Notes under the pieces: model-generated | Database searches by the model: none | Told to the model about the DNA's origin: nothing | What the model saw: the letters and a program-made list of their open reading frames with translations, nothing else | Position numbers and translations under genes: made by a program | Shown here: positions 6,078 to 37,760 of the stretch, piece after piece | Position numbering within the stretch: the first letter of the stretch is position 1 | How the letters are laid out: each line of letters starts with the position of its first letter | Assembly (NCBI RefSeq): GCF_011044995.1 | Contig: NZ_JAAKZW010000004.1 | Location: 62,001-126,000, forward strand | Reading direction: 5' to 3' | DNA length: 64,000 nt | DNA from: Streptomyces mesophilus | GTDB taxonomy: Bacteria; Actinomycetota; Actinomycetes; Streptomycetales; Streptomycetaceae

Positions 6078-6626
6078 TCAGAGACCGAACTGCTGCGGGT
6101 TCACGCCCAGCGCCGCGCACGCTTCCCGCAGCACCTGCTCCTCGGCCGGGGCGATGTACCCGTCCGCGCCGGCGACGACGAACCCGGTCTGCACGACCGC
6201 CTGCGCCTCCGCCGGCTTCTTGGCCGCCTTGGCGATCTCCTGCATGACCGTGGTCTTGCCCTGCTGGAAGTTGTACGACAGCTGGTCGACGTGCTTGTTG
6301 AAGCGCTCGCGCAGCTGCTCGGGCGGGAAATTCTGCAGGACATCGTTCTGCAGGATCAGCGATTCCACATGCTGCCGCTCGGCGGGGTCGACCGAGCCGT
6401 CGGCCGCCGCGACCAGCGCGCACATGGCCATGGTGGCGTCCCGGAAGGCGCCGCTCTTCAGCTCTGTCTTGAGCGAGCTGAGCTGGGTCTTGAGCACACC
6501 CACCAGCTGAGCCTTCGATCCACCGCCCGTCCGTGCGGCAGACCCGCCGTGGCCGGCGGAGCTACGCCCGCCCTGCGCCTGCTGCAGCCCCTTGGCCTGA
6601 TCCTTGAGCCGGTCCCACATTGCCAT
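6078..6626 (-). CDS. TerB-family (tellurite-resistance-like) protein
   Basis: 182 residues from the ATG at 6626, which has GAGG eight bases upstream. After a Gly/Ser-rich linker (~10-35) comes a TerB-like helical domain: FRDATMAMCALVAAADGSVDPAERQHVES (~55-85) and a second acidic loop VVAGADGYIAPAEEQVLREAC (~145-165). These AADG/AD-rich loops are the metal-binding acidic pairs known for TerB. Streptomyces carry many such proteins, usually in tellurite/calcium-stress Ter systems; no other ter gene is adjacent, so the specific role is unknown. Confidence 0.88.
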   Translation of the reverse strand: MAMWDRLKDQAKGLQQAQGGRSSAGHGGSAARTGGGSKAQLVGVLKTQLSSLKTELKSGAFRDATMAMCALVAAADGSVDPAERQHVESLILQNDVLQNFPPEQLRERFNKHVDQLSYNFQQGKTTVMQEIAKAAKKPAEAQAVVQTGFVVAGADGYIAPAEEQVLREACAALGVNPQQFGL

Positions 6627-22180: not shown

Positions 22181-23377
22181 TCATCGCCCGACCGGATCTC
22201 CGTCGGCGCCATCCCCTTGCGCGAGCAGCAGAAGGTGCCCGCCGTGATGGAGCGGGGTGTCCAGCTTCAGGCGGGTGGCCTCGTGCGCGGACCGGGCGTC
22301 CACGACATGGACTTCGCCGTGACCCCCGCGGGTGACCGCCACCCAGTCCGCCCCCGGTGAAGCGGCCACGGCGCGGCGCTGGACGCCCTCCCAGGGGGTG
22401 GAGCCGCGGGCCGGGGCGCCCTCCATGGGCGGCAGTGCGGTGTGCCGGCCGGCTCCGTCGTCGCCCAGCAGGATCAGTTCATCGCCGTCGGGGTGGATGC
22501 GGGCGAACGCCGCATGCTCCTTCGCGAGGGCCAGCCGGAAGACCAGCCCCGGGCCGAGGTCGGTCAGCGATGTGACATCCGAGTCCAGTTCGTACGTCCA
22601 TGAGTGATTGGTCCACTCCGGCCAGCGCAACGGATCGGCGGGGCCGCCGCGCAGAGTCGACCACAGCGCCCTGCGCCGCGTATCGAGGCGCAGATACCAG
22701 CCGCGGGCAGGCCCACCCCACGGGATCACCGGCTCCGCGACGAGGCCGTCACCTCCCCGGCGCGCCCGGTGCACCCCCGCACCGGTAGCCGCGAACACCC
22801 ACTCGTGGACGGGGTCTTGGGCATCTCCGTGACCGTCGTCCGGCAGCGGAAGCGAGGCCAGCGGCTCGACCTGCGGGCAGCCGGGCGGCGCGGTGAGCAG
22901 GTCGGCGAAACGGTGGACGGACAGGGCGCCCGGCTCCCGGTGGCGCAGGACCACGAGCGGGTCGTCGGACCCGAGGACCGTCACGCCGGGCTCGCCTCTG
23001 CGCGTACGCACCCGGGCGACGTCCCCCGCGGCCAGGTCGACGAGGGTCAGCAGGTCCGACCAGGGCTCGGCGTTCTTGCCGAGGCCCGTCGTGACGGCCA
23101 CCCACCGCCCGCTCGGGTCCGCCGCCAGATGCTCGGCCGGCACCGCCACCGGGACGGTGACCGCCACAAAATCGCGACCGTAAGGGTCGAGTACGAGGAG
23201 TTCGCCGCGGCGGTCATCGACGCAGGCGACCCGTCCGCCCGGCAACGTCAAGAACCCTGCGTGCTCGGACAGATGACGTCCTGTCAGACGGCCCGCCTCG
23301 ATGCCGTCCGGCACCGTCACCACGTGGACGCACCCCTCGATGTGGTCGGAGACGAGGAGCAGCGGGTCGGTGGTCAT
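22181..23377 (-). CDS. Uncharacterised beta-propeller-like protein
   Basis: 398 residues, no signal peptide. It shows regularly spaced short beta-rich units ending in aspartate-containing turns (GRVACVDDRRGELLVLDPYGRD, GRWVAVTTGLG, DWVAVTRGGHGEVHVVDARS), which suggests a WD40/YVTN-like propeller. GGAGG lies six bases before the ATG. It is divergent from the metal importer across a 141-bp gap containing a Zur-box-like palindrome, so it might share zinc control. No enzyme motif is visible. Confidence 0.7.
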   Translation of the reverse strand: MTTDPLLLVSDHIEGCVHVVTVPDGIEAGRLTGRHLSEHAGFLTLPGGRVACVDDRRGELLVLDPYGRDFVAVTVPVAVPAEHLAADPSGRWVAVTTGLGKNAEPWSDLLTLVDLAAGDVARVRTRRGEPGVTVLGSDDPLVVLRHREPGALSVHRFADLLTAPPGCPQVEPLASLPLPDDGHGDAQDPVHEWVFAATGAGVHRARRGGDGLVAEPVIPWGGPARGWYLRLDTRRRALWSTLRGGPADPLRWPEWTNHSWTYELDSDVTSLTDLGPGLVFRLALAKEHAAFARIHPDGDELILLGDDGAGRHTALPPMEGAPARGSTPWEGVQRRAVAASPGADWVAVTRGGHGEVHVVDARSAHEATRLKLDTPLHHGGHLLLLAQGDGADGDPVGR

Positions 23378-23454: not shown

Positions 23455-23469
23455 TGAAAATGATTATCA
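23455..23469. promoter_or_regulatory. Zur-box-like palindrome upstream of the metallophore/zinc importer
   Basis: TGAAAAT-G-ATTATCA, a 7-1-7 inverted repeat with one mismatch, in an AT-rich island of an otherwise ~70% GC region. It matches the form of the Streptomyces Zur operator (TGAAAAT-N-ATTTTCA type). It lies 50 bp before the lipoprotein ATG and 78 bp from the divergent propeller gene. A Fur-type iron box has a similar look; the downstream L32/CobW context argues for Zur. Confidence 0.75.
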
Positions 23470-23518
23470 TGTATGGTCGGCCGCGTTCCGAACATGCGAG
23501 AAGAAAGTGGGGGCATCG

Positions 23519-24493
23519 ATGCTGCGCTCGATCTCGAGAGCTGTCCGATGCGGGATCGCCGCCGCGGTCCTGGGTTCCGTCCTGGTGGGATGCGGCGGCG
23601 ACGCCGAGCCGGCCACGACGGCGAAGGCGCAGGGGGAGAAGACCGATGTGACGGTCGAACCGATCAAGGCGACACGGGAGTTGACGGATGCCAACGGCGT
23701 CAAGGTCTCCTTGGAGAAGACGCCGGAGCGGATCGTGTGTCTGGTCGCGCTGTGCGACGACATCCTGACCGAGCTCGGCCTCGTCCCCACCGCCACCAAC
23801 AACGAACTCCTCGCCCAGCCCGGCTTCCTGGGCAAGGAGAAGGCGAAGCAGGTCAAGGTGATCCCCGGCGGCTTCATCGCACCGGAGGTCGAGGCGATCC
23901 TGTCCCACAAGCCCGATCTGGTGATCGGCCTCGAGGACACCCACGGCAAGCTCGCGCCCGCGCTGAAGGGGGCCACCACCTTCTGGCCCGTACAGCCCGA
24001 GAAGTGGCAGGACAGCGTGAGCTATCTGCGGGATGTCGCCGCACTCACCGGCCGTACGGCACAGGGCGAGAAGGCGGAGAAGACGTTCCGTACCAAGCTG
24101 GCCGACGCGGAGCGGACCAGGAGCGACAAGACGGCGCTCATCATCTACGGCAGCGACGAGAACTTCGGCGTCGCCACCCCGGGCGCGGACGTGGCCGCCG
24201 GACTCTTCCCGAAGCTGGCCGACTATCCCTGGAAATCCCGTGGTGTGGACGGGAGTTACAGCCTCGAAGAGATTCTCGCGCAGGGCGTGGACGTGCTCTT
24301 CGTGGAGACCATGAGCTTCGGCGAGGCGGACGGCAAGCTGTCCGAGAAGCTGGCCAAGAACCCGCTGTGGGGGAAGATTCCCGCCGTCAAGAACGGTGAC
24401 GTCCACGAGGTCAACTCGGAGATCTGGGCGAAGGGCCGCGGCACCCGCTCGCTCGGCATCGTCCTCGACGAGGCCGTGGCCGCGCTGAAGTGA
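23519..24493 (+). CDS. FecB/TroA-type metal(lophore)-binding lipoprotein
   Basis: 324 residues. A lipobox LVGC gives a lipidated Cys25. The mature part has the Peripla_BP_2 two-lobe pattern (ERIVCLVALCDDILTELGL; KPDLVIGLEDTHGKLAPALKG; DVHEVNSEIWAKGRGTRSLGIVLDEAV). This is the siderophore-type binding-protein family, not the ZnuA/AdcA family with a His-rich loop, so the ligand could be a metal-chelate complex. The frame is open upstream to 22604, but the signal peptide fixes the ATG at 23519. The gene overlaps the first permease by 4 bp. Confidence 0.9.
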   Translation: MLRSISRAVRCGIAAAVLGSVLVGCGGDAEPATTAKAQGEKTDVTVEPIKATRELTDANGVKVSLEKTPERIVCLVALCDDILTELGLVPTATNNELLAQPGFLGKEKAKQVKVIPGGFIAPEVEAILSHKPDLVIGLEDTHGKLAPALKGATTFWPVQPEKWQDSVSYLRDVAALTGRTAQGEKAEKTFRTKLADAERTRSDKTALIIYGSDENFGVATPGADVAAGLFPKLADYPWKSRGVDGSYSLEEILAQGVDVLFVETMSFGEADGKLSEKLAKNPLWGKIPAVKNGDVHEVNSEIWAKGRGTRSLGIVLDEAVAALK

Positions 24494-25527
24494 GCGTGCA
24501 GGCGGCGATATCCGATACGGGGGCGCCGGCCGCCGGGCCTGACGGGCATCCGGGCAAGCCCGCGCGGCGGCGGTCGGGGGTCCAGCTGCTGGTCCTCGGT
24601 GTCCTGCTGGCCGTCGCGTCATGGTGCGCGCTGAGTCTTGGCACCCCCTATGTGCCGCTGCACCGGCTGTTCGGGGGCGACGAGATCACTCAGGTGGTCG
24701 TGTCCGAACTCCGTGTACCCCGGCTGGTGTTGGCGCTGCTCGCCGGCGCCTGCCTGGGGGCGGCCGGACTCGTGCTCCAGGAGGCGCTGCGCAACCCCCT
24801 GGCGGTCCCCGAGATGCTGGGCGTCTCGTCCGGCGCGGCGCTCGGGGTGGCCGCACCGCTGGTGCTCGCCGTGGCCGTGCCCGCTGCCGTCCAGCCGCTG
24901 CTCGCCATCGGCGGGGCCGCGCTGGGCGGCGGACTCACGCTGCTCGCGGCGGGGCTCGGGCGCAGCCCGTCGGCCGTGCTGCTCACCGGGGCCGCCGTCG
25001 CGGCGGCGCTGCAGGCCGCGCTGCTCGTCCTGATGGTCATGGCCGATCAGCTCGATCTGCAGCTGATCTACCGGTATTTGCTCGGCTCACTGTCGGCGCG
25101 CACCTGGGAGGACGTCACCGGCCTGTGGCCGTGGCTCCTGATCGCCGTTCCGGCGCTCGTGCTGTGCGCGCCGGTGCTCGCGGTGCTCCGGCTCGGTGAC
25201 GACGACGCCGAAGCTCTGGGCGTACGAGCACGGCGGGCCCGGTTCGCGGCGCTGGCCGTCGCCGTGGTGCTGATCGCGCCCGTGACCGCCGTGTGCGGGC
25301 CCGTGGCGTGGGTGGGATTCCTCGCGCCGCAGCTGGCGCGCAGGCTCAACCCCCGCTCCGACGCGGTGGGTTGGCTGCCCTGGTCGGCGGCATGGGGCGC
25401 GGTCGTCGTGGCCCTCGCCGACGTACCGGCCCGGCTCGCGCTCGCACCGGTGGAGATCCCGGTCGGCGCCTGGACGGCCCTGCTCGGGGTGCCGGCCGGG
25501 GTCGCTCTGCTGAGGAGGGCGCGATGA
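24490..25527 (+). CDS. FecCD-family ABC permease (importer subunit 1)
   Basis: 345 residues, GTG start overlapping the lipoprotein stop. Nine to ten membrane helices; FecCD signatures include LRVPRLVLALLAGACLGAAGLVLQEALRNPLAVPEMLGVSSGAALG and AVCGPVAWVGFLAPQLAR. It pairs with the next permease to form the membrane channel of a BtuC-like importer. Its place behind a Zur-box-like site suggests uptake of zinc or a zinc chelate. Confidence 0.93.
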   Translation: MSVQAAISDTGAPAAGPDGHPGKPARRRSGVQLLVLGVLLAVASWCALSLGTPYVPLHRLFGGDEITQVVVSELRVPRLVLALLAGACLGAAGLVLQEALRNPLAVPEMLGVSSGAALGVAAPLVLAVAVPAAVQPLLAIGGAALGGGLTLLAAGLGRSPSAVLLTGAAVAAALQAALLVLMVMADQLDLQLIYRYLLGSLSARTWEDVTGLWPWLLIAVPALVLCAPVLAVLRLGDDDAEALGVRARRARFAALAVAVVLIAPVTAVCGPVAWVGFLAPQLARRLNPRSDAVGWLPWSAAWGAVVVALADVPARLALAPVEIPVGAWTALLGVPAGVALLRRAR

Positions 25528-26639
25528 CGGACAAGGTTCAGGTGGCGGAGAGGGAGTCGATGGCCGGGTCCGTGCAGGCCGCACGGGTCGTGCGATCGAA
25601 CGAGCCGGATCCGATGGGGCGGCCCGCACACATGGCGCGGCGCTTCGGCGTACTCGCCGGGCTCATCCTGGCCGCCGTCTGCGCATCGCTCATGTCGGGG
25701 CGGGCCATGTCCCCGTCCGTGGCCTGGGATGTGCTGTCCGGCGGGGGCGGCGCGATGGACCGGCACGTGCTGTTCAACCTCCGGGTGCCCCGTCTCCTTG
25801 TGGCGCTCGGGGCGGGCGGCTGCCTCGGTGTCGCGGGTCTGGTCCTCCAGTCGGCGCTCCGTAATCCGCTGGCCGGACCCGAGGTCACCGGTGTGACGCC
25901 TGGCGCCGTACTCGGAGCGGTCACGGCGACCGGACTCGGCCTCGCGGGCTGGCAGTCACCACTCGCCGTGGTCGTCGCGGCCCTCGCGGGCGGTCTGGCC
26001 GGGGCCGGACTCCTGTGGCTCCTCGCCGGACGCGGCCGTGCGGATCCCGCACAGACCGCCGTGTACGGAGTGCTCGTCTCCGCCGTACTCGGCGGACTCA
26101 CCGCCATGGTGCTGCTCGTCGCCCCGGGCGAACTGGGCAGCGTGGTCCAGTGGCTGGTCGGCACTACAGAGGGCCGCGTATGGGAGCACTGGCATCTCCT
26201 GTGGCCCTGGGCGCTCGCCTGGGCAGTCGTGGCCTGGCTGTGTGCCGGGCCGCTGACCCTGCTGCGCTGCGGCGACGAACTCGCCGCCGCGGCCGGCCTG
26301 TCGGTCGTACGGGCCCGGTCCCTGGCGCTGCTGTGTGCCGTGGCGCTGACGGCGGGCGCCGTGGCCTCCGTGGGTGCGCTCGGTTTCGTCGGCCTGCTCG
26401 TGCCGCATGTCGCCGTGGCCGTTTTCGGCGCCGACCTGCGCTGCGCGCTGCCCGGGGCGGCGCTGCTGGGGGCGCTCGTGGTGTGCGGCGCGGACGCCAC
26501 CGCACAAGCGCTCTCGCGACTGCTCGCCCTGGCCCTCGACTCCGACCGGCTGACCGTGCCCGTCGGAGCGCTCACCGCGTGTGTGGGCGCGGTGCTGCTG
26601 CTGATCGTCGTACGCCGCACGCCCGCCCAGGACTTCTAG
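25524..26639 (+). CDS. FecCD-family ABC permease (importer subunit 2)
   Basis: 371 residues from the ATG at 25524 (GAGGAGGG just upstream, 4-bp overlap with the previous stop). A ~35-residue polar N-terminal extension precedes nine to ten helices. Family motifs: LRVPRLLVALGAGGCLGVAGLVLQSALRNPLAGPEVTGVTPGAV and ASVGALGFVGLLVPHVA. The two permeases differ clearly, so they form a heterodimer, as in siderophore importers. Confidence 0.93.
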   Translation: MTDKVQVAERESMAGSVQAARVVRSNEPDPMGRPAHMARRFGVLAGLILAAVCASLMSGRAMSPSVAWDVLSGGGGAMDRHVLFNLRVPRLLVALGAGGCLGVAGLVLQSALRNPLAGPEVTGVTPGAVLGAVTATGLGLAGWQSPLAVVVAALAGGLAGAGLLWLLAGRGRADPAQTAVYGVLVSAVLGGLTAMVLLVAPGELGSVVQWLVGTTEGRVWEHWHLLWPWALAWAVVAWLCAGPLTLLRCGDELAAAAGLSVVRARSLALLCAVALTAGAVASVGALGFVGLLVPHVAVAVFGADLRCALPGAALLGALVVCGADATAQALSRLLALALDSDRLTVPVGALTACVGAVLLLIVVRRTPAQDF

Positions 26640-26741: not shown

Positions 26742-27545
26742 ATGAGTGAACCCGTGGGCATCCGCGTAGAAGGAGTCCACTTCGGATACCCCGGCCGCCC
26801 CGTCCTGCGCGGCGTGGACGTGGCTGTCGAACCGGGAGAGCTGACCGCCCTCGTCGGCCTCAACGGGTGCGGCAAATCGACCCTGTTGCGGATCGTCGCC
26901 GGGCTGCTTCGGCCCGGCGAGGGGCGGGTCCTGGTGGGCGGTCACGACCTGGCCCGACGCTCGCGGCGGGCCACCGCACGCCATGTGGCGCTGCTGCACC
27001 AGTCGGCCCCGGCGGTTCCGGGGATGACCGTACGCCAGCTCGTACGGCAGGGGCGGTACGCGGCGCGCGGCCCGCTCGGCATGCTGCGCGAAGGCGACGA
27101 CGCCGTGGTGCGCCGCGCCTTGGACGACGTCGGCGTGGCGGCCTGGGCCGAACGGCCCGTCGACTCGCTCTCCGGCGGCGAACGCCAGCGCGTGCGCCTG
27201 GCCATGGCGCTCGCCCAGGACACCCGCGTACTGCTGCTCGACGAGCCCACCACCTACCTGGATCTCCACCATCAACTCGACGTGCTGCAAACGGTGGTGA
27301 GGCTGCGCGAGGAGCGCGGCCTGACCGTGGTCATGGTGCTGCACGACCTTGCGCACGCCGCCCGCTTCGCCGAGCGGATCGTCGCCCTGCGGGATGGCGG
27401 CGTGGTGGCCGACGGGGCGCCGAAGGAGGTCGTCACGCCCGGGTTCCTCGCGGACGTGCTGCGGGTCGCGGGCCGCGTCGGGCGGGACCCCGAGGGGGAC
27501 TGGCCGGTGTGTTACCCAGATCACCCACTGCCCTCTTCCAAATGA
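26742..27545 (+). CDS. FecE-type ABC importer ATPase
   Basis: 267 residues. Walker A is GLNGCGKSTLL (~40), the ABC signature LSGGERQR (~142), Walker B VLLLDEPTTYLDLHHQLDVL, and the H-loop VMVLHDLAHAARF. It energises the FecCD permeases encoded before it. The stop codon at 27543-27545 is itself part of the next Zur-box-like palindrome, so importer and peptide operon are packed with no spacer. Confidence 0.93.
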   Translation: MSEPVGIRVEGVHFGYPGRPVLRGVDVAVEPGELTALVGLNGCGKSTLLRIVAGLLRPGEGRVLVGGHDLARRSRRATARHVALLHQSAPAVPGMTVRQLVRQGRYAARGPLGMLREGDDAVVRRALDDVGVAAWAERPVDSLSGGERQRVRLAMALAQDTRVLLLDEPTTYLDLHHQLDVLQTVVRLREERGLTVVMVLHDLAHAARFAERIVALRDGGVVADGAPKEVVTPGFLADVLRVAGRVGRDPEGDWPVCYPDHPLPSSK

Positions 27546-27557
27546 CAATCATATTCA
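27543..27557. promoter_or_regulatory. Zur-box-like palindrome upstream of the RiPP operon
   Basis: TGACAAT-C-ATATTCA, 7-1-7 with the TGA...TCA ends conserved, in a local AT-rich patch. It overlaps the ATPase stop and lies 62 bp before the precursor ATG, a usual operator position. It is the second of three such boxes in 13 kb. Confidence 0.7.
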
Positions 27558-27618
27558 ATAACGTTCTCGCGTGGTGATCGACCGATCGCCGCAACTCCCT
27601 TGTGATGGAGGAAAGTTC

Positions 27619-27732
27619 ATGAAGGACGACCAGGTCTTCACGCCGATCGCCGACCCCGGCCAGCTGGCCCACGACTCGGCTTCCCACTCCAACGCTCTCG
27701 TCGAGAACCCCTTCGACGACACCGAGGAGTGA
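27619..27732 (+). CDS. Candidate RiPP precursor peptide (37 residues)
   Basis: ATG at 27619 with GGAGGAAA seven to eight bases upstream. The 37-residue product begins MKDDQVFTPIADPGQLA and continues HDSASHSNALV, ending in an acidic tail. There is no cysteine. Ser20, Ser22 and Ser24 alternate with Ala21 and His23, and His18 precedes. Azole-forming YcaO systems cyclise Ser/Thr/Cys, so oxazol(in)es flanking histidines are plausible. The leader could be ~1-17 and the core the Ser/His stretch, or the acidic C-terminus could be the recognition part. Position directly before a leader-binding protein and YcaO genes, and after a Zur-like box, is the main support. Its boundaries and modification are inference. 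Confidence 0.8.
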   Translation: MKDDQVFTPIADPGQLAHDSASHSNALVENPFDDTEE

Positions 27733-27751
27733 CCGAGGTCTGACCCTCGCT

Positions 27752-27786
27752 CGCGGGCCCGCCGACTGCCTCTCGGCGGGCCCGCG
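27752..27786 (+). terminator. Intercistronic hairpin (attenuator) after the precursor gene
   Basis: A perfect 14-bp inverted repeat (27752-27765 with 27773-27786) and 7-nt loop lie 19 bp after the precursor stop and 48 bp before the leader-binding protein start. Such a partial terminator would make precursor mRNA more abundant than modification-enzyme mRNA, as is common in RiPP operons. Confidence 0.8.
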
Positions 27787-27833
27787 TTCCAAGTCCTGTT
27801 GTGTGTAAGCCCCTTGTTCACGGGAGAAGTGAC

Positions 27834-28703
27834 GTGTCGCGCAGTCAGCTCGCACCGGGTGTCGAAGTCGTCGCCGTCCCCGACGGCGGCCTGGCCGTCC
27901 GTACGGCCGACGGGGAGTTCCTCCGGGTCGCGGCGGGCGAGGCGCACCGGGGGGAGCTGCTGGCCCGGCTCGCCGGCGGCGCGGCCGAGCGGGTGGACGC
28001 CGAAGTCGACCGGCTGGTGGCGGCGTTCGAGGGGGCCGGGTACGCCGAGGAGTGCGGTGGGGCGGACCGGGCCATGTGGCCTGTGGAGCGCCGGGACGTG
28101 TTGCTGCTCGGTGCTCCCGTACTGACGAAGCCGCTGGCCGGGTACCTGGAGGCGGCGGGGGCCGCGCCCCGGTTCGGTCGGCCGGGCGACTGGGAAACGG
28201 ACGAGCCCGCCGCCGTGGTGTGGTGCCTCGACGGTCCCGTATCCGAAGGCCTGTGGGACGCCGCCGACCGGCTGCCCGAGCGCGGCATCGCCTGGTCGCG
28301 CTGCCACCTCGAGGGCTGGCAGGCGTACGTCGAGCCGCTCGCGGCCGTGGCCGGGGATGTCACCTCCGCGCAGGTCCGGGCCCGGCGCCTGGCCGCCACG
28401 CCCGCCCACCGCGAACTGGCCGCCTACTGGCACGGACCGCGCACGGGCTCGCCCGTACGCCTTGCCGAGCCGGCCGCGGGACTGCTTGCCGCGCTCCTTG
28501 CGGATGACCTCACCTGGTGGGCGACCGGGGCCCGTGACGAGGACGGACTGCCCGCGCGGCGGCGCCTTCGACGCGTCGATCTGCGGACCCTGACCGTCAC
28601 CGCGCACCCCGTCCTGCCCGTGCCCGATGTGGCAGCGATGCCTGAGGTGCGGACGCACCGTCCTGGTGCGCAGGGCGCGGCAACGTCCGGGCACAGCCGG
28701 TGA
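27834..28703 (+). CDS. TOMM precursor leader-peptide-binding protein (ocin-ThiF-like/F-type partner of YcaO)
   Basis: 289 residues from GTG 27834, with GGGAGAA seven bases upstream. The N-terminal ~75 residues resemble a RiPP recognition element (LAPGVEVVAVPDGGLAVRTADGEFLRV). The middle is a degraded E1/ThiF-like fold, and the C-terminus has RRRLRRVDLRTLTVTAHPVLPVP, the hallmark of this family. The Cys-x-x-Cys usually following that motif is missing (PDVAAMPEV instead); only three scattered Cys remain, so the structural zinc appears lost. It should present the precursor to YcaO. Its stop overlaps the hydrolase start by 4 bp. Confidence 0.78.
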   Translation: MSRSQLAPGVEVVAVPDGGLAVRTADGEFLRVAAGEAHRGELLARLAGGAAERVDAEVDRLVAAFEGAGYAEECGGADRAMWPVERRDVLLLGAPVLTKPLAGYLEAAGAAPRFGRPGDWETDEPAAVVWCLDGPVSEGLWDAADRLPERGIAWSRCHLEGWQAYVEPLAAVAGDVTSAQVRARRLAATPAHRELAAYWHGPRTGSPVRLAEPAAGLLAALLADDLTWWATGARDEDGLPARRRLRRVDLRTLTVTAHPVLPVPDVAAMPEVRTHRPGAQGAATSGHSR

Positions 28704-30181
28704 CTTCGTTCACCACGTCCGTCAGCGGGCTCGCCACCGACGTCCAACTGCCGGATGGGCAGGTCACTTTCCCGGCCGTCCTCATCCGCACTCCCTACGA
28801 CCGGCACAGCCACCGTGCTGAGCTGCGCGGCTGGGCGCGGCGCGGATTCGCCGCGCTCGCCCAGGATGTACGCGGCCGGTACGCGTCGCCGGGGGAGTGG
28901 CGACCGTACGAGAGGGAGGCCGCCGACGGCGCGGACACCGCGCGCTGGATCCGGCGGCAGACCTGGAGCGACGGCCGGCTCGTGGCCTGCGGTGCCTCCT
29001 ACGCCGCCCACTGCGCCCTCGCGCTCGCGCTGGAAGGGCCCGAAGACGCGCGCCCCGACGCCGTGATCGCCGCCGTACCCGCGCTCGGAGCGGCCGACAC
29101 GGCGCGTGAACCCTCGGGCGTGGAGCGGCTGTGGAACCGCGCTGGGTGGTGGGCCGCCCACGGCGACCGGCCTGACTCCGACGAGAGCGCCCTGGCCAAG
29201 GCGCTCGCCGCCGATCCGGATCTGTTGTCCCACCTGCCGTTGGTGAAGTTGCCCGGGAGGCTGGGGCGGGAGCTCCCGTCCTGGGAGGGGCTGTGGTGCC
29301 GACGCGAGCGCGGGCGGCTTGTGTCCCGCGCGGCGGCGGCGAGGATGCCGCTGCTCGCCGTGGGCGGGCACCATGACCACTTCGCCGAGGACACGGTGGA
29401 ACTGTGGCGCCGCTGGGGCGGGCCGTCCGCGCGCCTGCTGATGGGGCCCTGGGGGCACGGCCTTGTCGCCGCGCCCGGGCCCGGTGCCTATCCCGAACAT
29501 CGCCTGAGGCTAGGCGAGTTGTATGCGGACTGGGCCCGCGCCGCTCTCGAAGGGCGGCTCAGGGAAGGGCGGGCCGGTGCGCTCGCCCTCGGTGGGGGCC
29601 CACTATGGGTGGCACCGGACATCATGGGCGACTCCTACGCTCCGAATCTGCGCCTGCTGCGCGGGGCCGCCTTCACCGCGGACCCTGAACGCCCGGTCAG
29701 CTCAGTGGAACTGGCCGTCCCCGCAGACGGCGAGCCGGACCGCTGCGTGCTCGTCACCCCGCCGCTCCCGCGCCCGCTGGACGCGTTCGGTCCCGCGGAA
29801 GTGCGTCTGCGCGCCACCGCGGACACGCCGTCCGCCGACTGGGTCGCCCGACTTGTCGCGCTGAGCCCCGAAGGGCGGGCGGTGCGGATCGGGGTTGGCA
29901 TCGTCCGCCGCGCCGAACCTCCGTACAGCAGCAAGGAGTTCACGATCCCCATCGGACGCCTCGCGCGACGACTGCCTGCCGGCACCCGGCTCCGTCTCGA
30001 GATCGCCGGACACCACTTCCCGGCCCACGCCCGCAACCCGCACACCGGCGACGACCCGATCACGGCCACCCGCCTGATCGCCTCCCGTCGCAGGGTGGAC
30101 CCGACCGGCCTCGAACTCCGCCTCGCTGCGCTCCGTACCCGACCCACACCCACCGACCCGGCCCTGGAGATCCCCCGATGA
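28700..30181 (+). CDS. CocE/NonD (S15-type) alpha/beta-hydrolase in the RiPP operon
   Basis: 493 residues, GTG start coupled to the previous stop. Alpha/beta-hydrolase with a C-terminal jelly-roll of the X-Pro dipeptidyl-peptidase/cocaine-esterase type. The nucleophile motif GASYAAH gives Ser100; candidate triad partners are Asp226 (GHHDHF) and His253 (GPWGHG). The N-terminus has the VLIRTPYDRHSH and ALAQDVRGRYASPGEWRPY segments of the family. In this operon it may remove leader residues or hydrolyse an ester/amide during maturation. No other protease is present in the cluster. Confidence 0.85.
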   Translation: MTSFTTSVSGLATDVQLPDGQVTFPAVLIRTPYDRHSHRAELRGWARRGFAALAQDVRGRYASPGEWRPYEREAADGADTARWIRRQTWSDGRLVACGASYAAHCALALALEGPEDARPDAVIAAVPALGAADTAREPSGVERLWNRAGWWAAHGDRPDSDESALAKALAADPDLLSHLPLVKLPGRLGRELPSWEGLWCRRERGRLVSRAAAARMPLLAVGGHHDHFAEDTVELWRRWGGPSARLLMGPWGHGLVAAPGPGAYPEHRLRLGELYADWARAALEGRLREGRAGALALGGGPLWVAPDIMGDSYAPNLRLLRGAAFTADPERPVSSVELAVPADGEPDRCVLVTPPLPRPLDAFGPAEVRLRATADTPSADWVARLVALSPEGRAVRIGVGIVRRAEPPYSSKEFTIPIGRLARRLPAGTRLRLEIAGHHFPAHARNPHTGDDPITATRLIASRRRVDPTGLELRLAALRTRPTPTDPALEIPR

Positions 30182-31557
30182 CGCCGCTGCCGCTCGAAGC
30201 CCTCGTGGACCCCGTCTGCGGCATCGTCCGCAAGGTCAAGCCCGTCGACCATCCGGCCGGTGCGCCGCCGCGGTACACGGCGATGACCGCCGAGGTCGCG
30301 GACGCCCGCAGGCTCGGTCTGTGGCCCGCCGACCGTGTCTCGCTGGGCACCGCCTTCGGTGACCCCGACACCGCCCGTATCGCCGCCATAGCCGAGGGAA
30401 TCGAGCGGTACTGCGGCAACCGCGTCCCGCCGCCGGGCCACCCGGACGCTCCCCTGCGCGCCACCGCCGGCGAACTCGCCGGGAAGGGCCTGCGGCTGTA
30501 CGGGCCGGACGCGCTGCCTTCGTACGCGGACTGGCAGTACGCCCGCGAGAAGTTCCCCTACCGTGGGCTCACGCACGACACCCCGGCCCTGTGGACGCGC
30601 GGAGTCGAGCAGCTGCCCGACGGCACGACGGACGAGGTGTGGGCGCCTGTCGCGCTCACCCACCTCAACTGGCGCCAGGGCGAGCTGCGTTCACTGCCGC
30701 GCACCCACCACCTCAACTACGCGGGCATCGCCACCGGCCAGGGCTTCGACGACGCCGTCGAACGCGGCCTTCTGGAGATCGCCGAACGCGACGCCCTGGA
30801 GGTGTGGTGGCACCTCGACGGGCCCACGCGCGGCATCGACGCGGCGACGGTCCCCGGTCTCGCGGAGGACCTCGCCGGATGCGGGCTCACCGTGTGGATC
30901 GTCGAGATGCCCTCCGAGTTCGCGCCCTGTATGGCCGCCCTCGTGTACGACCCGCGGCTCGATCTGTACGCCGCCGGGTTCGCCTGCAAGTACGACCCGG
31001 CCGACGCCGCCCGTAAGGCCGTACTCGAAGCGGTGCACACCTGGGTGTTCACCCAGGGGCTCACCGACCCCGACGGCTGGGTCTTCCAGGCCGTCGACGC
31101 CGGACTGCTCGCCAAGGGGCTCTACCTCGACCACCGGGAGGACCGTCGCTATCTCGATGCCTGCGGTGAACAGTTTGAACGCGTAAGGGATTTGGGCGCC
31201 CACGTCCAGGTGTGGCTCGATCCGCGGATGGCTTCCGAGGCCAGACGTTTCACGGAGCCGGCGCACGGCGTCGTACCCCTCGGCGCTGTCGCGTCGGGCA
31301 GCCGGGAGCGGATGGCCGCAGCCCTGCGCGAGGGCGGCCACCGTGTGATGACCTTCGACCTGACCACCGAGGACGTGGCCGAGACACAGCTGAGGGTCGC
31401 CCGGGTTCTGGTGTCCGGACTGCTGCCCAACGCACCGGCCGCGTTCGGGTACTTCGGGTGCCCGCGCCTCGCCGAAGCCGCCCTCGCGCGCGGCTGGCGT
31501 ACCGCCGCGCCGGGCGCGCCCGATGACTTCACGCTGGCCCCGCCGCCGCACATGTGA
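30178..31557 (+). CDS. YcaO-domain cyclodehydratase
   Basis: 459 residues. The ATP/Mg-binding motifs are visible: AEGIERYCGN (Glu73, Glu76, Arg77) and GLLEIAERDALEVWW (Glu200, Glu203, Arg204, Asp205); AVLEAVHTWVF follows near 280. The C-terminus ends APPPHM, a Pro-rich end typical of azoline-forming YcaO proteins. YcaO enzymes phosphorylate the backbone amide and cyclise Ser/Thr/Cys to azolines, or make amidines or thioamides. Together with the leader-binding protein and SagB-like dehydrogenase this points to azol(in)es. ATGA overlaps couple it on both sides. Confidence 0.93.
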   Translation: MTPLPLEALVDPVCGIVRKVKPVDHPAGAPPRYTAMTAEVADARRLGLWPADRVSLGTAFGDPDTARIAAIAEGIERYCGNRVPPPGHPDAPLRATAGELAGKGLRLYGPDALPSYADWQYAREKFPYRGLTHDTPALWTRGVEQLPDGTTDEVWAPVALTHLNWRQGELRSLPRTHHLNYAGIATGQGFDDAVERGLLEIAERDALEVWWHLDGPTRGIDAATVPGLAEDLAGCGLTVWIVEMPSEFAPCMAALVYDPRLDLYAAGFACKYDPADAARKAVLEAVHTWVFTQGLTDPDGWVFQAVDAGLLAKGLYLDHREDRRYLDACGEQFERVRDLGAHVQVWLDPRMASEARRFTEPAHGVVPLGAVASGSRERMAAALREGGHRVMTFDLTTEDVAETQLRVARVLVSGLLPNAPAAFGYFGCPRLAEAALARGWRTAAPGAPDDFTLAPPPHM

Positions 31558-32696
31558 GCCGCGCCATGGACCTAGGGAAAGCCCTCGCCAGAGCCCGTAC
31601 GGACGAAGTGCCCGGCCCGGACATGCCCGCCGCGCCGATGGTGCCCGACTGGCCGGGCCCCGCTCGCCGTCTGCCGCGGGCCGAGCTCGGACAGCTGGAC
31701 CTGCGCGAGCTGCTGCGCCTTTCGCTGGCCGCCGCCGACGGGACCGGACGGCTGCGGCCCGCGCCCTCCGCAGGCGCGCTGCACCCCGTCGACGCCCAGC
31801 TTGTCGTGGGCGACAACTGCGCGATGGAGCAGGGGCGGTACGGCTACGACCCGTTGTGTCACCGGGTGCATCGTCTCGGCGCCGCGCCTGGCGATGTGCT
31901 GCCCGGGGTTGCGGTCGAGCTGTACGCGATTCCGCAGCGCACGGAAGCCCACTACGGTCACCGCGCCTGGCCGCTGATCCTGCTCGACGCGGGGCATGCG
32001 GCTGCGGCGCTGTGGCTCGCGGGTCGGGCCTTGGGCGCCGGAGCGCCCGCCCTCGATCTGGAGGGTGCAGGCGAACAGCCGCTGGCTGTCGTGCACTTCG
32101 CGCCGGACTGGGGTGGCCGGCGGAGAGGGGAGCACGGTTTGCGGCAGGGCGAGGGCGCGGGGCGCATGGCGGACCGAAACCCGCATCAGGCACCCGAGCC
32201 CCGCGACCTCCTGGCCCGCCGCAGCACCCCGCCCCCGCTGAACGGCACCCTCACGCGTGCCGACCTGCTCGCCGTACTCACCACAGCGCAACAAGCCGAC
32301 GCCGGCGAACTGAGCTGGTGCGTGGCCGTCGGCGCACCCGAGCCGGAGCTCGTCGAGTTGGCGCCGGACGGTGCGCTGCGCCGGCTGGCCGCGGGGGAGG
32401 CGCGGCCCACCCTGGCCGCCTGGGCCGCGGGTCAGCGGTGGATCGCGGACGCCGGCGCGGTGCTCATCGGCTACGGCTGTCCGTCCGACGCGGACGCCGA
32501 GCGGATCCGGCGCACCCATCTGCGCGCCGGCTTCGCCGTCGGCCGCGCACACGTCGCGGCCCTGCAACGAGGGTTGGCGTCCCGCCCCGTCGGCTCCTGG
32601 CAACAGGCCGACCTGGGCGCGGCGCTCGGCCGCGCACCGGAACAAGACTGGATCGTCCACGGCCTGGCTCTGGGCCGACCCGAGGAGGGGACCTGA
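31554..32696 (+). CDS. SagB/McbC-type FMN azoline dehydrogenase
   Basis: 380 residues, GTG start overlapping the YcaO stop. Nitroreductase-fold protein with the RPAPSAGALHPVDAQLVV motif of SagB-type dehydrogenases (~60-78) and duplicated-half organisation (second half from ~215: RRSTPPPLNGTLTRADLLAVL...). These enzymes oxidise azolines to aromatic azoles using FMN. The C-terminal half lacks a strong second flavin motif, so one half may be structural. Its stop is immediately followed by the first exporter's GTG. Confidence 0.85.
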   Translation: MSRAMDLGKALARARTDEVPGPDMPAAPMVPDWPGPARRLPRAELGQLDLRELLRLSLAAADGTGRLRPAPSAGALHPVDAQLVVGDNCAMEQGRYGYDPLCHRVHRLGAAPGDVLPGVAVELYAIPQRTEAHYGHRAWPLILLDAGHAAAALWLAGRALGAGAPALDLEGAGEQPLAVVHFAPDWGGRRRGEHGLRQGEGAGRMADRNPHQAPEPRDLLARRSTPPPLNGTLTRADLLAVLTTAQQADAGELSWCVAVGAPEPELVELAPDGALRRLAAGEARPTLAAWAAGQRWIADAGAVLIGYGCPSDADAERIRRTHLRAGFAVGRAHVAALQRGLASRPVGSWQQADLGAALGRAPEQDWIVHGLALGRPEEGT

Positions 32697-34436
32697 GTGA
32701 TCGTCCACCCGGAGCTGCGCCGTGCCGCACGCCTCGCACGCCGTGAGCTGCTCGCGGCCACCGCCCTGCAGGGGGCCGTGACCCTCAGCTGGCTCGGCCA
32801 GGCCGTCCTGCTCGCTTTCGCCCTCGCCGCCATCGCCCGCGGTGACACCGGCCAACTGCCGGGTCTCCTCACGGCAGTTGCGGCCACCGTGGTCGTCCGC
32901 GCCGGACTCGGCCTGTGGCAGCGCCGTATCGCCACCCGGGCCGGAGCACGGGTCCGGGTCCGGCTGCGCGACGAGCTCTTCGCCCATCTCGGCCTCCTCG
33001 GCGCCGCCCACCTGACCACGGCCCGCACGGGAGCGGTCCGCACCACCCTGGTCGACGGAGTCGAAGGCGTCGACGCGTACGTCTCCCGCTACCTTCCTCA
33101 GCTGATCGTCACGTTCACCGCACCACCGCTCCTGCTCATCGCCGTCGCGGTCATCGAACCGCTCGCCCTGTTCGGCCTCGTACCGGCGCTGGTGCTCGCC
33201 CTGGCCGGGCCGCGCGCCTGGGACCGGCTCCTCGCCCGACGCGGCAAGGAGCACTGGGACACGTACGAACAACTCGGCGCCGACTACCTCGAGGCCCTGC
33301 AAGGCATGCCCGCGCTGCGCGCCGCGGGTGCCGTCGGGCGCGCACGAGTGCGCCTGGAGGAACGGTCGGCCGCGCTGCACCGCGCCACCGTGACCAAGCT
33401 CCGCGTCTCGCTCGTCGACACCGGTATCACCGACCTGGCCATCCAGGGCGGCACGGCGGCGGCCGCCCTGCTCGCCTGTTGGTCGACGGCGACCGGGTCC
33501 ACCACGGCCACCGGCACCTATCTGGTGCTGCTGCTCGCCGGGGAGTGCTTCCGTCCCGTACGCGATCTGTCCAGGGAGTGGCACGCCGGCTATCTGGGCG
33601 TCTCGGCTGCGGACGGGCTCGCGGCCCTGCGCACCGCCGAACCAGCCGTCTCCGATACGGGAACAGAGCAAGCCGACTGGCGCACGCCGCCCGAACTGCG
33701 GTTCGAGGAAGTCGAGTTCGCCTATCCCGGCGCTGAGGCGAGTGCGCTCACGAGCGTCTCCTTCACCGCCGAAGCCGGCCGTACCACCGCGATCGTGGGC
33801 CCCTCGGGCGCCGGCAAGTCGACCCTGATCGCCCTGCTCCTGCGCCACCGCGACCCGCAGCGCGGCCGGATCACCGTCGACGGCCGGGACATCACCTCGT
33901 ACACCCTCGACGCTCTCCGGGTCGGCATCGCCGTGGTCTCCCAGGAGACCCACCTCTTCCACGCCACCATCGCCGACAACCTGCGCCTGGCCCGTGCCGA
34001 GGCCACCGACGAGGAGCTGCGGCGCGCCGCCCGCGCGGCCGGTATCCACGACGAGATAGCCGGGCTGGCCGACGGCTACGACACCGTCCTCGGCGAGCGC
34101 GGCGCCACCCTCTCCGGCGGCCAGCGCCAGCGCCTCGCCCTGGCCCGTGCCCTGCTCGCCGACGCGCCCGTCCTCGTTCTCGACGAGGCCACCAGCTCCG
34201 TCGACGAGCGCCGCGAGGCGGACATCGTCCGCGAACTCCTGGACGCCGCGGGGGAGCGGACCGTCCTCGTCGTCGCCCACCGGCTCGCGGCCGTACGGCA
34301 CGCCGACCGCATCGTGGTCCTCGACGGCGGCCGCGTGGACGCCGAAGGCGACCATGCCGCGCTCGTCGCCGCCGGGGGCGTCTACGCGGAGCTCGTCGAG
34401 GCGGGCCGTATGCCGCAAGGAGGGCTCGCCGCATGA
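32697..34436 (+). CDS. ABC exporter, fused permease-ATPase (half 1)
   Basis: 579 residues, GTG start directly after the dehydrogenase stop. Six membrane helices (~20-320) and an ATPase domain with Walker A GPSGAGKST (~365), signature LSGGQRQR and Walker B VLVLDEATSSVDERREADIV. With the next gene it probably forms a heterodimeric exporter (CydDC/TM287-288-like layout). Its place at the end of the RiPP operon makes product secretion the likely job. Confidence 0.9.
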   Translation: MIVHPELRRAARLARRELLAATALQGAVTLSWLGQAVLLAFALAAIARGDTGQLPGLLTAVAATVVVRAGLGLWQRRIATRAGARVRVRLRDELFAHLGLLGAAHLTTARTGAVRTTLVDGVEGVDAYVSRYLPQLIVTFTAPPLLLIAVAVIEPLALFGLVPALVLALAGPRAWDRLLARRGKEHWDTYEQLGADYLEALQGMPALRAAGAVGRARVRLEERSAALHRATVTKLRVSLVDTGITDLAIQGGTAAAALLACWSTATGSTTATGTYLVLLLAGECFRPVRDLSREWHAGYLGVSAADGLAALRTAEPAVSDTGTEQADWRTPPELRFEEVEFAYPGAEASALTSVSFTAEAGRTTAIVGPSGAGKSTLIALLLRHRDPQRGRITVDGRDITSYTLDALRVGIAVVSQETHLFHATIADNLRLARAEATDEELRRAARAAGIHDEIAGLADGYDTVLGERGATLSGGQRQRLALARALLADAPVLVLDEATSSVDERREADIVRELLDAAGERTVLVVAHRLAAVRHADRIVVLDGGRVDAEGDHAALVAAGGVYAELVEAGRMPQGGLAA

Positions 34437-34470
34437 GCATCGTCCACCTGCACCGAGGAGAACCCGCCGC

Positions 34471-36222
34471 ATGAGCACCGTCGACACCGCTGTTCCCGCG
34501 CGTGGTTCGCTGCGTGCCCTGCTGCCTGCCCTCGCCGGGCACCGCGTCATGATGGCCCGTACCTGCGCGGCCGCCCTGCTCGAACAGGGGTCGCTGGTCA
34601 CGCTGGTCACCCTGTCCGCGCACACGGTCGGCGCCGCGGTCATCACGGGTGCTGCGCCTTCGGGTGCCACCGTGGCGGCGATCGGCCTCCTCGTAGTGCT
34701 GCGCGCCCTGATGACCTGGCGCGAGATGGACCTCTCGCACGATCTGGCCTACCGGGTCCTGGCCGAACTTCGCGTACGGCTCTTCGACGGGCTCGCCCGC
34801 AGCGCCCCGGCCCGCGTCGCCGGCAAGCGCAGCGGAGACCTGGCCGCCACGGCCATGGCCGACGTGGAGGCGCTGGAGTTCTTCTACGCGCACACCACCG
34901 CCCAACTCCTCGCCTCGGGCGTCGTGTTCACCGGCGGCGCCGGGCTGCTCGCCACCGTGGAGCCCTGGCTCCTGCTCGCCGTCGTGCCGGTCGCCGTCCT
35001 CCTGACCACCGCACCCTTCGCCGACGCACGCGGACGTACCGCCCGAGGCACTCGCACCCGTCAGGCCGCCGCCGCCCTGTCCGCCGACACCGTGGAGACC
35101 GTCGACGGGCTGCGCGACCTGCTGGCTTTCGGCGCACTCGGCGAGTGCCGCGCCGAGCTCGCCGCCCGCGGACGCAAGCTCGGGGCCGCCCAACGGGCGG
35201 AAGCCACCTGGGAGGCGATGGCCGCCGCCGTACGTGACCTGCTGATCGTGCTCGCCGTACTCGGCGTGGTGGCCGCCGCCGCGGGAGCCGTCACCGCCGG
35301 GCGACTGCACGGTGCGTGGGCCCCGGCCGCGATGGCGCTCGCCCTGTCCATGCTCGGCCCGGTCGCCGAATCCGCCCGGGCACTCAGCCAGGCGATGGGG
35401 CTGCGGATCGCGGCAGCCAGGGTCGAGTCCGGTATCAAGGCCCCCACCCTCGCGCCGCCACCCACTTCCCCCCGCTCCCTGCCCGCAGGACCGCTCGGTG
35501 TCCGCCTGCACGGCGTGAGCTTCGCGTACGGCGACCAACCCGTACTCCAGGACACCGAGTTGACGGTCCCGGCCGGACAGACCCTTGCCCTCGTCGGGAC
35601 CTCGGGCGCCGGCAAGTCCACCTGCGCCCACCTCATCGCCCGCTTCTGGGACCCCTCGGCAGGATCTGTCCAGCTCACCCCGGAGAGCGGCGAACCCGTC
35701 GACCTGCGCGACCTCGCCGACGCGGACCTCCGTACCGCCGTCGCCGTGGTGGGCCAGGACACCCCGCTGTTCCACGGCACGCTCGCCGAGAATCTGCGTC
35801 TGTCCGCACCCGACGCGGACGACAGGACCCTCGCCGAAACGGCCGCGCTGTGCGGCATCGACCGCATCGCGCCCTTGGACACCCATGTCGGCGAGCGCGG
35901 CGCCACCCTCTCCGGCGGCCAGCGCGCCCGAATCGCACTCGGCCGCGCCCTCCTGGCCCGGCCCCGCGTCCTCGTCCTCGACGAGACCACCGCCCACCTG
36001 GACAACGTGTCCGACGCCGAACTCGGCGCCGTACTCGCCGATGAGCACCGCACCACGATCGTGATCGCGCACCGGCCCGCGACGATCCGCCGGGCCGACC
36101 GCATCGCCGTACTCGAAGGCGGCCGCATCGCGGAGGAAGGCACCTGGGACCAGCTCACCGCACGGCCCGACGGAGCGCTCGCCCGCGTGCTGGCGCTCTC
36201 GCGTGCGCAGTCCACTCCTTGA
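34471..36222 (+). CDS. ABC exporter, fused permease-ATPase (half 2)
   Basis: 583 residues from ATG 34471 (GAGGAG ten bases upstream). Six helices, then an ATPase with GTSGAGKST, signature LSGGQRARIALGRALL and Walker B VLVLDETTAHLDN; the residue after Walker B is Glu, so this site could be hydrolytically active. The longer frame upstream overlaps half 1 and is not a credible start. It completes the RiPP operon, which ends at a tandem repeat and the third Zur-like box. Confidence 0.9.
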   Translation: MSTVDTAVPARGSLRALLPALAGHRVMMARTCAAALLEQGSLVTLVTLSAHTVGAAVITGAAPSGATVAAIGLLVVLRALMTWREMDLSHDLAYRVLAELRVRLFDGLARSAPARVAGKRSGDLAATAMADVEALEFFYAHTTAQLLASGVVFTGGAGLLATVEPWLLLAVVPVAVLLTTAPFADARGRTARGTRTRQAAAALSADTVETVDGLRDLLAFGALGECRAELAARGRKLGAAQRAEATWEAMAAAVRDLLIVLAVLGVVAAAAGAVTAGRLHGAWAPAAMALALSMLGPVAESARALSQAMGLRIAAARVESGIKAPTLAPPPTSPRSLPAGPLGVRLHGVSFAYGDQPVLQDTELTVPAGQTLALVGTSGAGKSTCAHLIARFWDPSAGSVQLTPESGEPVDLRDLADADLRTAVAVVGQDTPLFHGTLAENLRLSAPDADDRTLAETAALCGIDRIAPLDTHVGERGATLSGGQRARIALGRALLARPRVLVLDETTAHLDNVSDAELGAVLADEHRTTIVIAHRPATIRRADRIAVLEGGRIAEEGTWDQLTARPDGALARVLALSRAQSTP

Positions 36223-36265: not shown

Positions 36266-36280
36266 TGGGAACCATTTTCA
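36266..36280. promoter_or_regulatory. Zur-box-like site upstream of rpmF paralogue and CobW gene
   Basis: Reverse strand reads TGAAAAT-G-GTTCCCA: one half site is perfect, the other degenerate. It lies 45 bp before the L32 ATG. Zinc-free ribosomal paralogues under Zur are established in Streptomyces, which supports the assignment of this and the two related boxes. Confidence 0.75.
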
Positions 36281-36324
36281 TGTAGCGTGAGCGACGCACG
36301 CCCGACCGAGATCAGGAGCCACCC

Positions 36325-36495
36325 ATGGCCGTTCCCAAGCGGAAGATGTCCCGCAGCAACACCCGCCACCGCAGGGCCCAGTGGAAGGCGACGACGGCGC
36401 AGCTCGTGCCGGTCACCGTGGACGGCACGACGCACCTCGTGCCGCAGCGCCTCGTGAAGGCGTACGAGCGCGGCCTGCTGCACCCCGAGGGCTGA
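36325..36495 (+). CDS. rpmF: Cysteine-free (C-minus) 50S ribosomal protein L32 paralogue
   Basis: 56 residues, [20 protein letters not shown] then the L32 core ending RGLLHPEG. Standard zinc-binding L32 carries four cysteines in its C-terminal ribbon; this one has none. C-minus paralogues replace the zinc form under zinc limitation and are classic Zur targets. AGGAG lies 7 bases before the ATG. Five bases separate it from the CobW gene. Confidence 0.95.
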
Positions 36496-36500
36496 CCGGG

Positions 36501-37760
<1,260 letters not shown>

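Follow-up and report, generated by a model that had tools for sequence, protein, structure and literature searches.

The stretch of Streptomyces mesophilus DNA analyzed here (64 kb of contig NZ_JAAKZW010000004.1, positions 62,001 to 126,000, hereafter the window) carries an ami gene cluster of the streptamidine family of ribosomally synthesized and post-translationally modified peptides (RiPPs). It represents a known kind of system, published in 2021; what is newly found, as read from the operator sequences, is the zinc control of the ami genes. All ami genes lie on the plus strand. The importer genes come first: amiF1 (23519..24493) for a siderophore-type substrate-binding lipoprotein (PF01497; lipobox cysteine C25, assigned by eye), amiF2 (24490..25527) and amiF3 (25524..26639) for FecCD permeases (PF01032), and amiF4 (26742..27545) for a FecE/FhuC-like ATPase (PF00005). 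They are followed by amiA (27619..27732), encoding a 37-residue precursor peptide; amiB (27834..28703, alternative start 27801), encoding an E1-like or leader-binding protein that matched TIGR03882 below cut-off; amiC (28700..30181), a CocE/NonD-type hydrolase gene (TIGR00976, PF02129); amiD (30178..31557), the YcaO gene (PF02624) and sole YcaO match in the 9.0-Mb genome; amiE (31566..32696, alternative GTG start 31554), encoding a SagB-like dehydrogenase of the nitroreductase type (PF00881; TIGR03605 below cut-off); and amiT1 (32697..34436) and amiT2 (34471..36222), encoding half-exporters of the ATP-binding cassette (ABC) type (both PF00664 and PF00005). Divergent from amiF1 on the minus strand is a gene for an eight-bladed propeller of AztD fold (22181..23377).

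Profile matches bore out the gene list of a first-pass annotation (peptide, amiB-like protein, hydrolase, YcaO, SagB-like protein and two half-exporters) as well as the flanks it had described, namely a siderophore-type importer on one side (Peripla_BP_2, two FecCD permeases and an ATPase) and a zinc-free L32 with a CobW protein on the other. These last two neighbors, both zinc-starvation genes, are rpmF (36325..36495, plus strand), whose L32 contains no cysteine, and a gene for a CobW-family GTPase (36501..37760, plus strand; PF02492, PF07683); another L32, with four cysteines, is encoded elsewhere in the genome. Its coupling of nearly all genes by 4-bp overlaps was overstated, as only the amiB-amiC and amiC-amiD overlaps are firm. 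The amiD and amiE genes overlap only if the GTG start at 31554 is used, amiE and amiT1 abut, 34 bp separate amiT1 from amiT2, and amiA and amiB are ~100 bp apart. Within this last gap lies a 14-bp hairpin (27752..27786, plus strand; −40.1 kcal/mol for an 83-nt stretch, z −4.2), likely an attenuator or processing site; a strong hairpin between precursor gene and amiB is expected where the precursor outnumbers its enzymes.

Both the precursor and the gene set place the cluster in motif A of the streptamidine family. AmiA matched the NCBIfam model for streptamidine family RiPPs (NF040714) over all 28 positions with 67.2 bits (cut-off 40), and the best-matching YcaO relatives of AmiD were from Streptomyces (up to 88%). 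The order F1-F4, A, B, C, D, E, T1, T2 has been described for more than 90 clusters, and streptamidine-type clusters have been reported from more than 230 species (PMC8442711). Precursor family, gene set and order are the same as in the streptamidine cluster of S. albidoflavus J1074 (PMC8442711; MIBiG BGC0002115). The two differ in the core peptide, published as HLSATH for J1074 and predicted by alignment as HDSASH here (27670-27687, plus strand), and in the rpmF and CobW genes that adjoin ami here; neither the Zur boxes nor the AztD-like propeller fold reported below is described in the available text of the J1074 paper, in which the word Zur does not occur (PMC8442711). The first-pass annotation had proposed an azole or azoline product from a gene set not described before, which is wrong on the second count and unsupported on the first. 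Streptamidine, the nearest characterized product, contains no azole but a six-membered amidine ring that links its second residue to the N-terminal amine, and peptides of its family are without Ser/Thr/Cys-rich regions (PMC8442711). The predicted HDSASH core, with two serines and no cysteine, does not resemble the Ser/Thr/Cys-rich core of a linear azole RiPP, and the NF040714 match together with the published family rules out an undescribed azole RiPP. A search with NF040715 gave no match in 396 genomes and none in any control, and was thus uninformative.

Zur-type operators in the window and in relatives

A binding motif for S. coelicolor Zur, tGaNNatSatNNtCa, has been derived from chromatin immunoprecipitation (ChIP; PMC5472717), and mismatches are given here against this motif unless a related or second motif is named. 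The three palindromes of the first-pass annotation were all present. Box 1 (TGAAAATGATTATCA, 23455..23469), common to amiF1 and the propeller gene, and box 2 (TGACAATCATATTCA, 27543..27557), upstream of amiA, had no mismatch, and box 3 (TGGGAACCATTTTCA, 36266..36280), upstream of rpmF, had two. The first three bases of box 2 are the stop codon of amiF4. Each box is followed closely by a −10-like element (TATGGT at 23472-23477, TAACGT at 27559-27564 and TAGCGT at 36283-36288, respectively). When the window was searched with a related pattern at up to two mismatches, only these three boxes were found (6 strand matches), compared to a mean of 0.98 strand matches in shuffled windows, of which 0/100 reached 6. 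Across the whole genome the same search returned 22 places against 2 for a reversed control.

Nine of the 19 genome boxes outside the window, in eight stretches, were inspected. Two adjoining boxes (1 and 2 mismatches) lie upstream of znuA (PF01297), whose neighbors are an ABC ATPase gene and a permease gene (both by eye) and a Fur-family gene. The 15-mer of box 3 recurs upstream of a CobW_C gene and of genes that were recognized by eye as L33- and L31-like and without cysteines. As binding of S. coelicolor Zur has been reported for znuA, rpmF2 and rpmG2 (PMC6103462), these genes tie the box to zinc. A perfect box (G000:C321:17219-17233; L097 near 4220) stands between a gene for a binding protein of the oligopeptide/nickel type (SBP_bac_5) and a divergent permease-like gene, which is possibly a further Zur-controlled importer of a metallophore or peptide, and no zinc gene was recognized by eye near the remaining five. 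Iron control was set aside, as no DmdR-type iron box was found within three mismatches in the window, a weak test given that shuffles also gave none.

Conservation was assessed in a named-genome set, in which 80 of 86 YcaO loci were kept and 76 had amiA on the contig (all but L040, L046, L059 and L064), and in a genus set formed by the best 30 of 38 precursor matches in 295 genomes, the window included. The precursor family was present in 38/295 genomes of the genus. The best site within 150 nt upstream of amiA had 0, 1, 2 or 3 mismatches at 30, 36, 6 and 4 of the 76 named-set loci, i.e., 66/76 at 0-1 mismatch, and all 30 genus-set loci were at 0-1 (20 and 10, respectively). Boxes at 0-1 mismatch were also found by amiF1 at 54/54 loci with this type of importer and near the propeller start at 73/74, partly the same box as that of amiF1. 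For loci with the HLSATH core, taken as stand-ins for J1074, the better of two motifs was at 0-1 mismatch in 9/9 (named) and 17/17 (genus) cases. The proposal of Zur-type control over both peptide operon and importer was thus supported, at sequence level, well beyond the window.

Four scrambled palindromes never came below 3 mismatches upstream of amiA in either set. With the first pattern at up to two mismatches, 71/77 amiA upstream regions were hit, compared to 9/1453 random 150-nt windows, among which amiF1 boxes may be included since only the surroundings of amiA had been excluded from the draw. A TANNNT element followed the amiA box by 0-4 nt at 63/69 (named) and 30/30 (genus) boxed loci against 4% after shuffling, so that the operator adjoins the predicted promoter in the layout of a repressor site. 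Shuffles, scrambles, promoter geometry and random windows together rule out chance palindromes. It is extremely improbable that the boxes belong to rpmF-CobW or arose by chance, with ami outside zinc control; box 3 and rpmF-CobW are indeed linked to ami in just some relatives, but the amiA box is kept in many genera whatever the neighbors, at a fixed distance from the −10-like element. With mismatch-free sites at boxes 1 and 2 that are kept in relatives, we regard Zur control of the motif-A family as near certain from its operator sequences.

The search was extended to a draw of 394 genomes from the class, of which 35 had an ami YcaO; loci were newly retrieved from all of these except the window's own genome and G107. 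Against either published motif, 14 of 18 closer loci (16 genomes) had a site at 0-1 mismatch, and the count rose to 17 when two mismatches were allowed. At 17 distant loci a second, looser motif occurred 19 times at up to one mismatch compared to 0.55 expected, although some of these sites lie away from gene starts. A motif-B precursor was recognized at four of the distant loci (L190, L193, L195 and L199), all of which showed a similar inverted repeat, by eye, beginning ~35 nt upstream of the start codon.

Importer, propeller and core peptide

A siderophore-type binding protein was present at 74/80 named-set loci: 54 of the type found here (type 1), 19 best matched by another type (type 2), and one divergent type 1 (L080). 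The six loci without one comprise five short contigs and an Arthrobacter locus (L077). Permeases of the type-2 importer are 31-42% identical to AmiF2 and AmiF3, and this importer was also found in four Streptomyces (L003, L026, L034 and L038); where it lies apart from amiA, a box of its own was only suggestive (L068 and L072). FecCD importer genes accompanied 16/17 distant class-draw loci; the whole S. mesophilus genome holds 15 FecCD matches. The first-pass annotation had linked the peptide to a FecCD-type importer, and this linkage is constant well beyond the window. The rpmF-CobW pair was ruled out as part of the ami system because its linkage to ami is limited to some relatives. The use of either importer type with this cluster, one having replaced the other, speaks for the importance of import as such.

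Deletion of amiF1-F4 abolished streptamidine production (PMC8442711), which would fit an importer that serves biosynthesis by supplying a metal or other substrate to the enzymes, hence the zinc control of the cluster. We consider this improbable. Two unlike importer types are in use. In 68 of 85 records (records of one place possibly being counted twice) the start of the amiA operator is 16 nt ahead of the amiF4 stop codon, and in a further 12 it falls on that codon, so that 80/85 have the operator inside amiF4 or at its end. The deletion may therefore have removed the amiA promoter, and the loss of production may be a cis effect.

The propeller gene had no Pfam or NCBIfam match, and sequence searches in the PDB gave none or chance matches. 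Its AlphaFold 2 model (mean predicted local distance difference test score, pLDDT, of 93) has a predicted eight-bladed fold that best matched AztD. The gene was found at 74/80 named-set loci and, in the class draw, only alongside ami genes; it is perhaps the amiX of PMC8442711. Like AztD chaperones (PMC6689063; PDB 6cmk, 6n01 and 6ck1), the modeled protein is eight-bladed and lies in a zinc-controlled neighborhood. AztD has three histidines in its central pore (site 1); candidate counterparts in the propeller, placed near the pore by strand position, are H39, H83 and H183, which are invariant and lie, in the model, at or near the starts of the innermost strands assigned by DSSP. In contrast to AztD, to which it is 12-15% identical and which is partnered by AztABC and not by a FecBCD-type importer, the propeller has no HGxHxD motif; the spacing of AztD site 2 (an HGxHxD hairpin and a C-terminal histidine) was not found by eye, and the conserved C-terminus reads GDPVGR. 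No signal peptide was seen by eye either, as strand 1 starts from residue 6 with no hydrophobic leader. The propeller was accordingly rejected as a member of the AztD metallochaperones. Outside Streptomyces, the propeller gene is adjoined by a gene for an S9 oligopeptidase-like protein that shares the Zur box of amiA (L062-L079, minus strand, e.g., L068:4856-6670).

The core peptides of 106 loci in the named and genus sets were HDSASH (52), HLSATH (26), HLSASH (11), HASASH (9), HASATH (5), HESASH (1), HNSASH (1) and HQSATH (1). Both histidines were thus conserved in all 106 recognized motif-A precursors; the search pattern demanded the pair but recovered every one of the 76 loci in which tblastn had located amiA. 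Outlier cores (HSAGH) occurred in L180 and L181, and two HGHVSH precursors of the class draw were dismissed as spurious pattern matches. Locus L182 (genome G895) encodes a divergent precursor behind a perfect Zur box, with a core-like HPTCNH that has a cysteine between the two histidines (box at 6098, peptide at 6177, YcaO forward). Three ami YcaO matches, all with the same precursor and two of them close to contig ends, were found in genome G139 (L177-L179).

A possible role in zinc capture

We somewhat favor the view that the cluster makes a zinc-capturing peptide, a ribosomal zincophore, when zinc is short. Zinc-loaded Zur is predicted to sit on boxes 1 and 2, adjoining the −10-like elements, and to repress, being released at low zinc. 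By analogy with the published relative, AmiB and the YcaO AmiD would then act on AmiA, AmiC would cut off the leader, and AmiE would be needed as well. The amidine-ringed HDSASH peptide is predicted to leave the cell via AmiT1/T2 and may bind extracellular zinc through its two conserved histidines, assisted by the amidine and, here, Asp2. AmiF1 would capture the zinc-loaded peptide, which AmiF2-F4 would bring back into the cell; an exporter (T1/T2) and an importer (F1-F4) that presumably carry the product are encoded with it. Zinc or the zinc-peptide may then pass to the AztD-fold propeller, which shares box 1 and seems to be cytoplasmic, and in other genera an S9 oligopeptidase encoded in the same operon might go on to cleave the peptide.

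Carriage of zinc by the product is the simplest account, and on balance probably the right one, but it meets real negative data. Streptamidine was negative in the chrome azurol S (CAS) assay, liquid chromatography-mass spectrometry (LC-MS) with seven metal ions including zinc(II) revealed no binding by the HLSATH peptide, metal starvation did not set the YcaO mutant apart from the wild type, and the peptide was produced in quantity under ordinary fermentation (PMC8442711). Several genomic observations weigh on the same side. The amiA site had 3 mismatches at 4/76 named-set loci; in the class draw, three loci were at 2 mismatches and one, 0.6 kb from a contig end, was without a box. L077 carries ami genes with no importer within 21 kb, and L198, whose YcaO is just 26-28% identical, is likewise without importer genes. 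Motif-B precursors lack the histidine pair, and the propeller lacks the AztD transfer site, its fold by itself showing no function. The assays may have explanations of their own: LC-MS, if run in acid, would possibly strip zinc from imidazoles, and ZnuABC could possibly mask the loss of the peptide in the mutant. The isolated streptamidine may moreover be a fragment, because AmiE is required and yet the product shows no oxidation (PMC8442711).

The fold of AmiF1 matches FecB, YfiY and HtsA, and its closest relatives are iron-siderophore binding proteins, which also counts against zinc as the cargo and would suit a product that carries another metal (e.g., copper, cobalt or iron), zinc starvation being merely the trigger. 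This is very improbable, as streptamidine bound none of iron(II), cobalt(II), copper(II), magnesium(II), manganese(II) and nickel(II) either (PMC8442711), and the weak test for a DmdR-type box points the same way. Less easily dismissed, albeit still unlikely, is a peptide made under zinc starvation as a signal or weapon, with the importer used for sensing or recycling. That neither metal binding nor a starvation phenotype was seen in the published work would agree with this, and signalling or development was suggested by the streptamidine authors, who gave the role as unknown (PMC8442711). However, neither antibacterial nor antifungal activity was seen (PMC8442711), and the siderophore-type importer, the histidine pair and the co-control with the AztD-fold protein and znuA-type genes fit a carrier better. 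Metal import had also been suspected by these authors from the FecBCDE-like genes (PMC8442711).

Extended to the whole family, the zinc-carrier reading would describe a widespread actinobacterial RiPP family as a Zur-switched zinc-acquisition system, with a YcaO amidine peptide, two interchangeable importer types and an intracellular AztD-fold acceptor, in which the switch reaches the motif-B branch and all members diversified as zincophores; we give this broader claim an even chance. If the role is confirmed, a YcaO amidine peptide gains a testable function, and this would be, to our knowledge and from a search of open-access literature, the first ribosomal zincophore. Methanobactin is reportedly a ribosomal metal-handling peptide as well, but for copper and made by enzymes other than the YcaO system here. 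Bufferins are RiPPs that also handle copper with other enzymes, in contrast to the YcaO and the presumed zinc of the present system. The conserved operator points to zinc starvation as the condition under which a streptamidine-type role should be studied. It also adds two partners that the available text of PMC8442711 does not treat as such, the AztD-fold protein and, in other genera, the co-regulated oligopeptidase. Zur-controlled zincophores do exist in actinomycetes, namely coelibactin and [S,S]-ethylenediamine-disuccinic acid ([S,S]-EDDS; PMC6103462, PMC12161575). These are non-ribosomal or enzymatic products, whereas the ami product is ribosomal, YcaO-made and a putative zinc binder, and Zur sites lie at their biosynthetic clusters as they do at ami.

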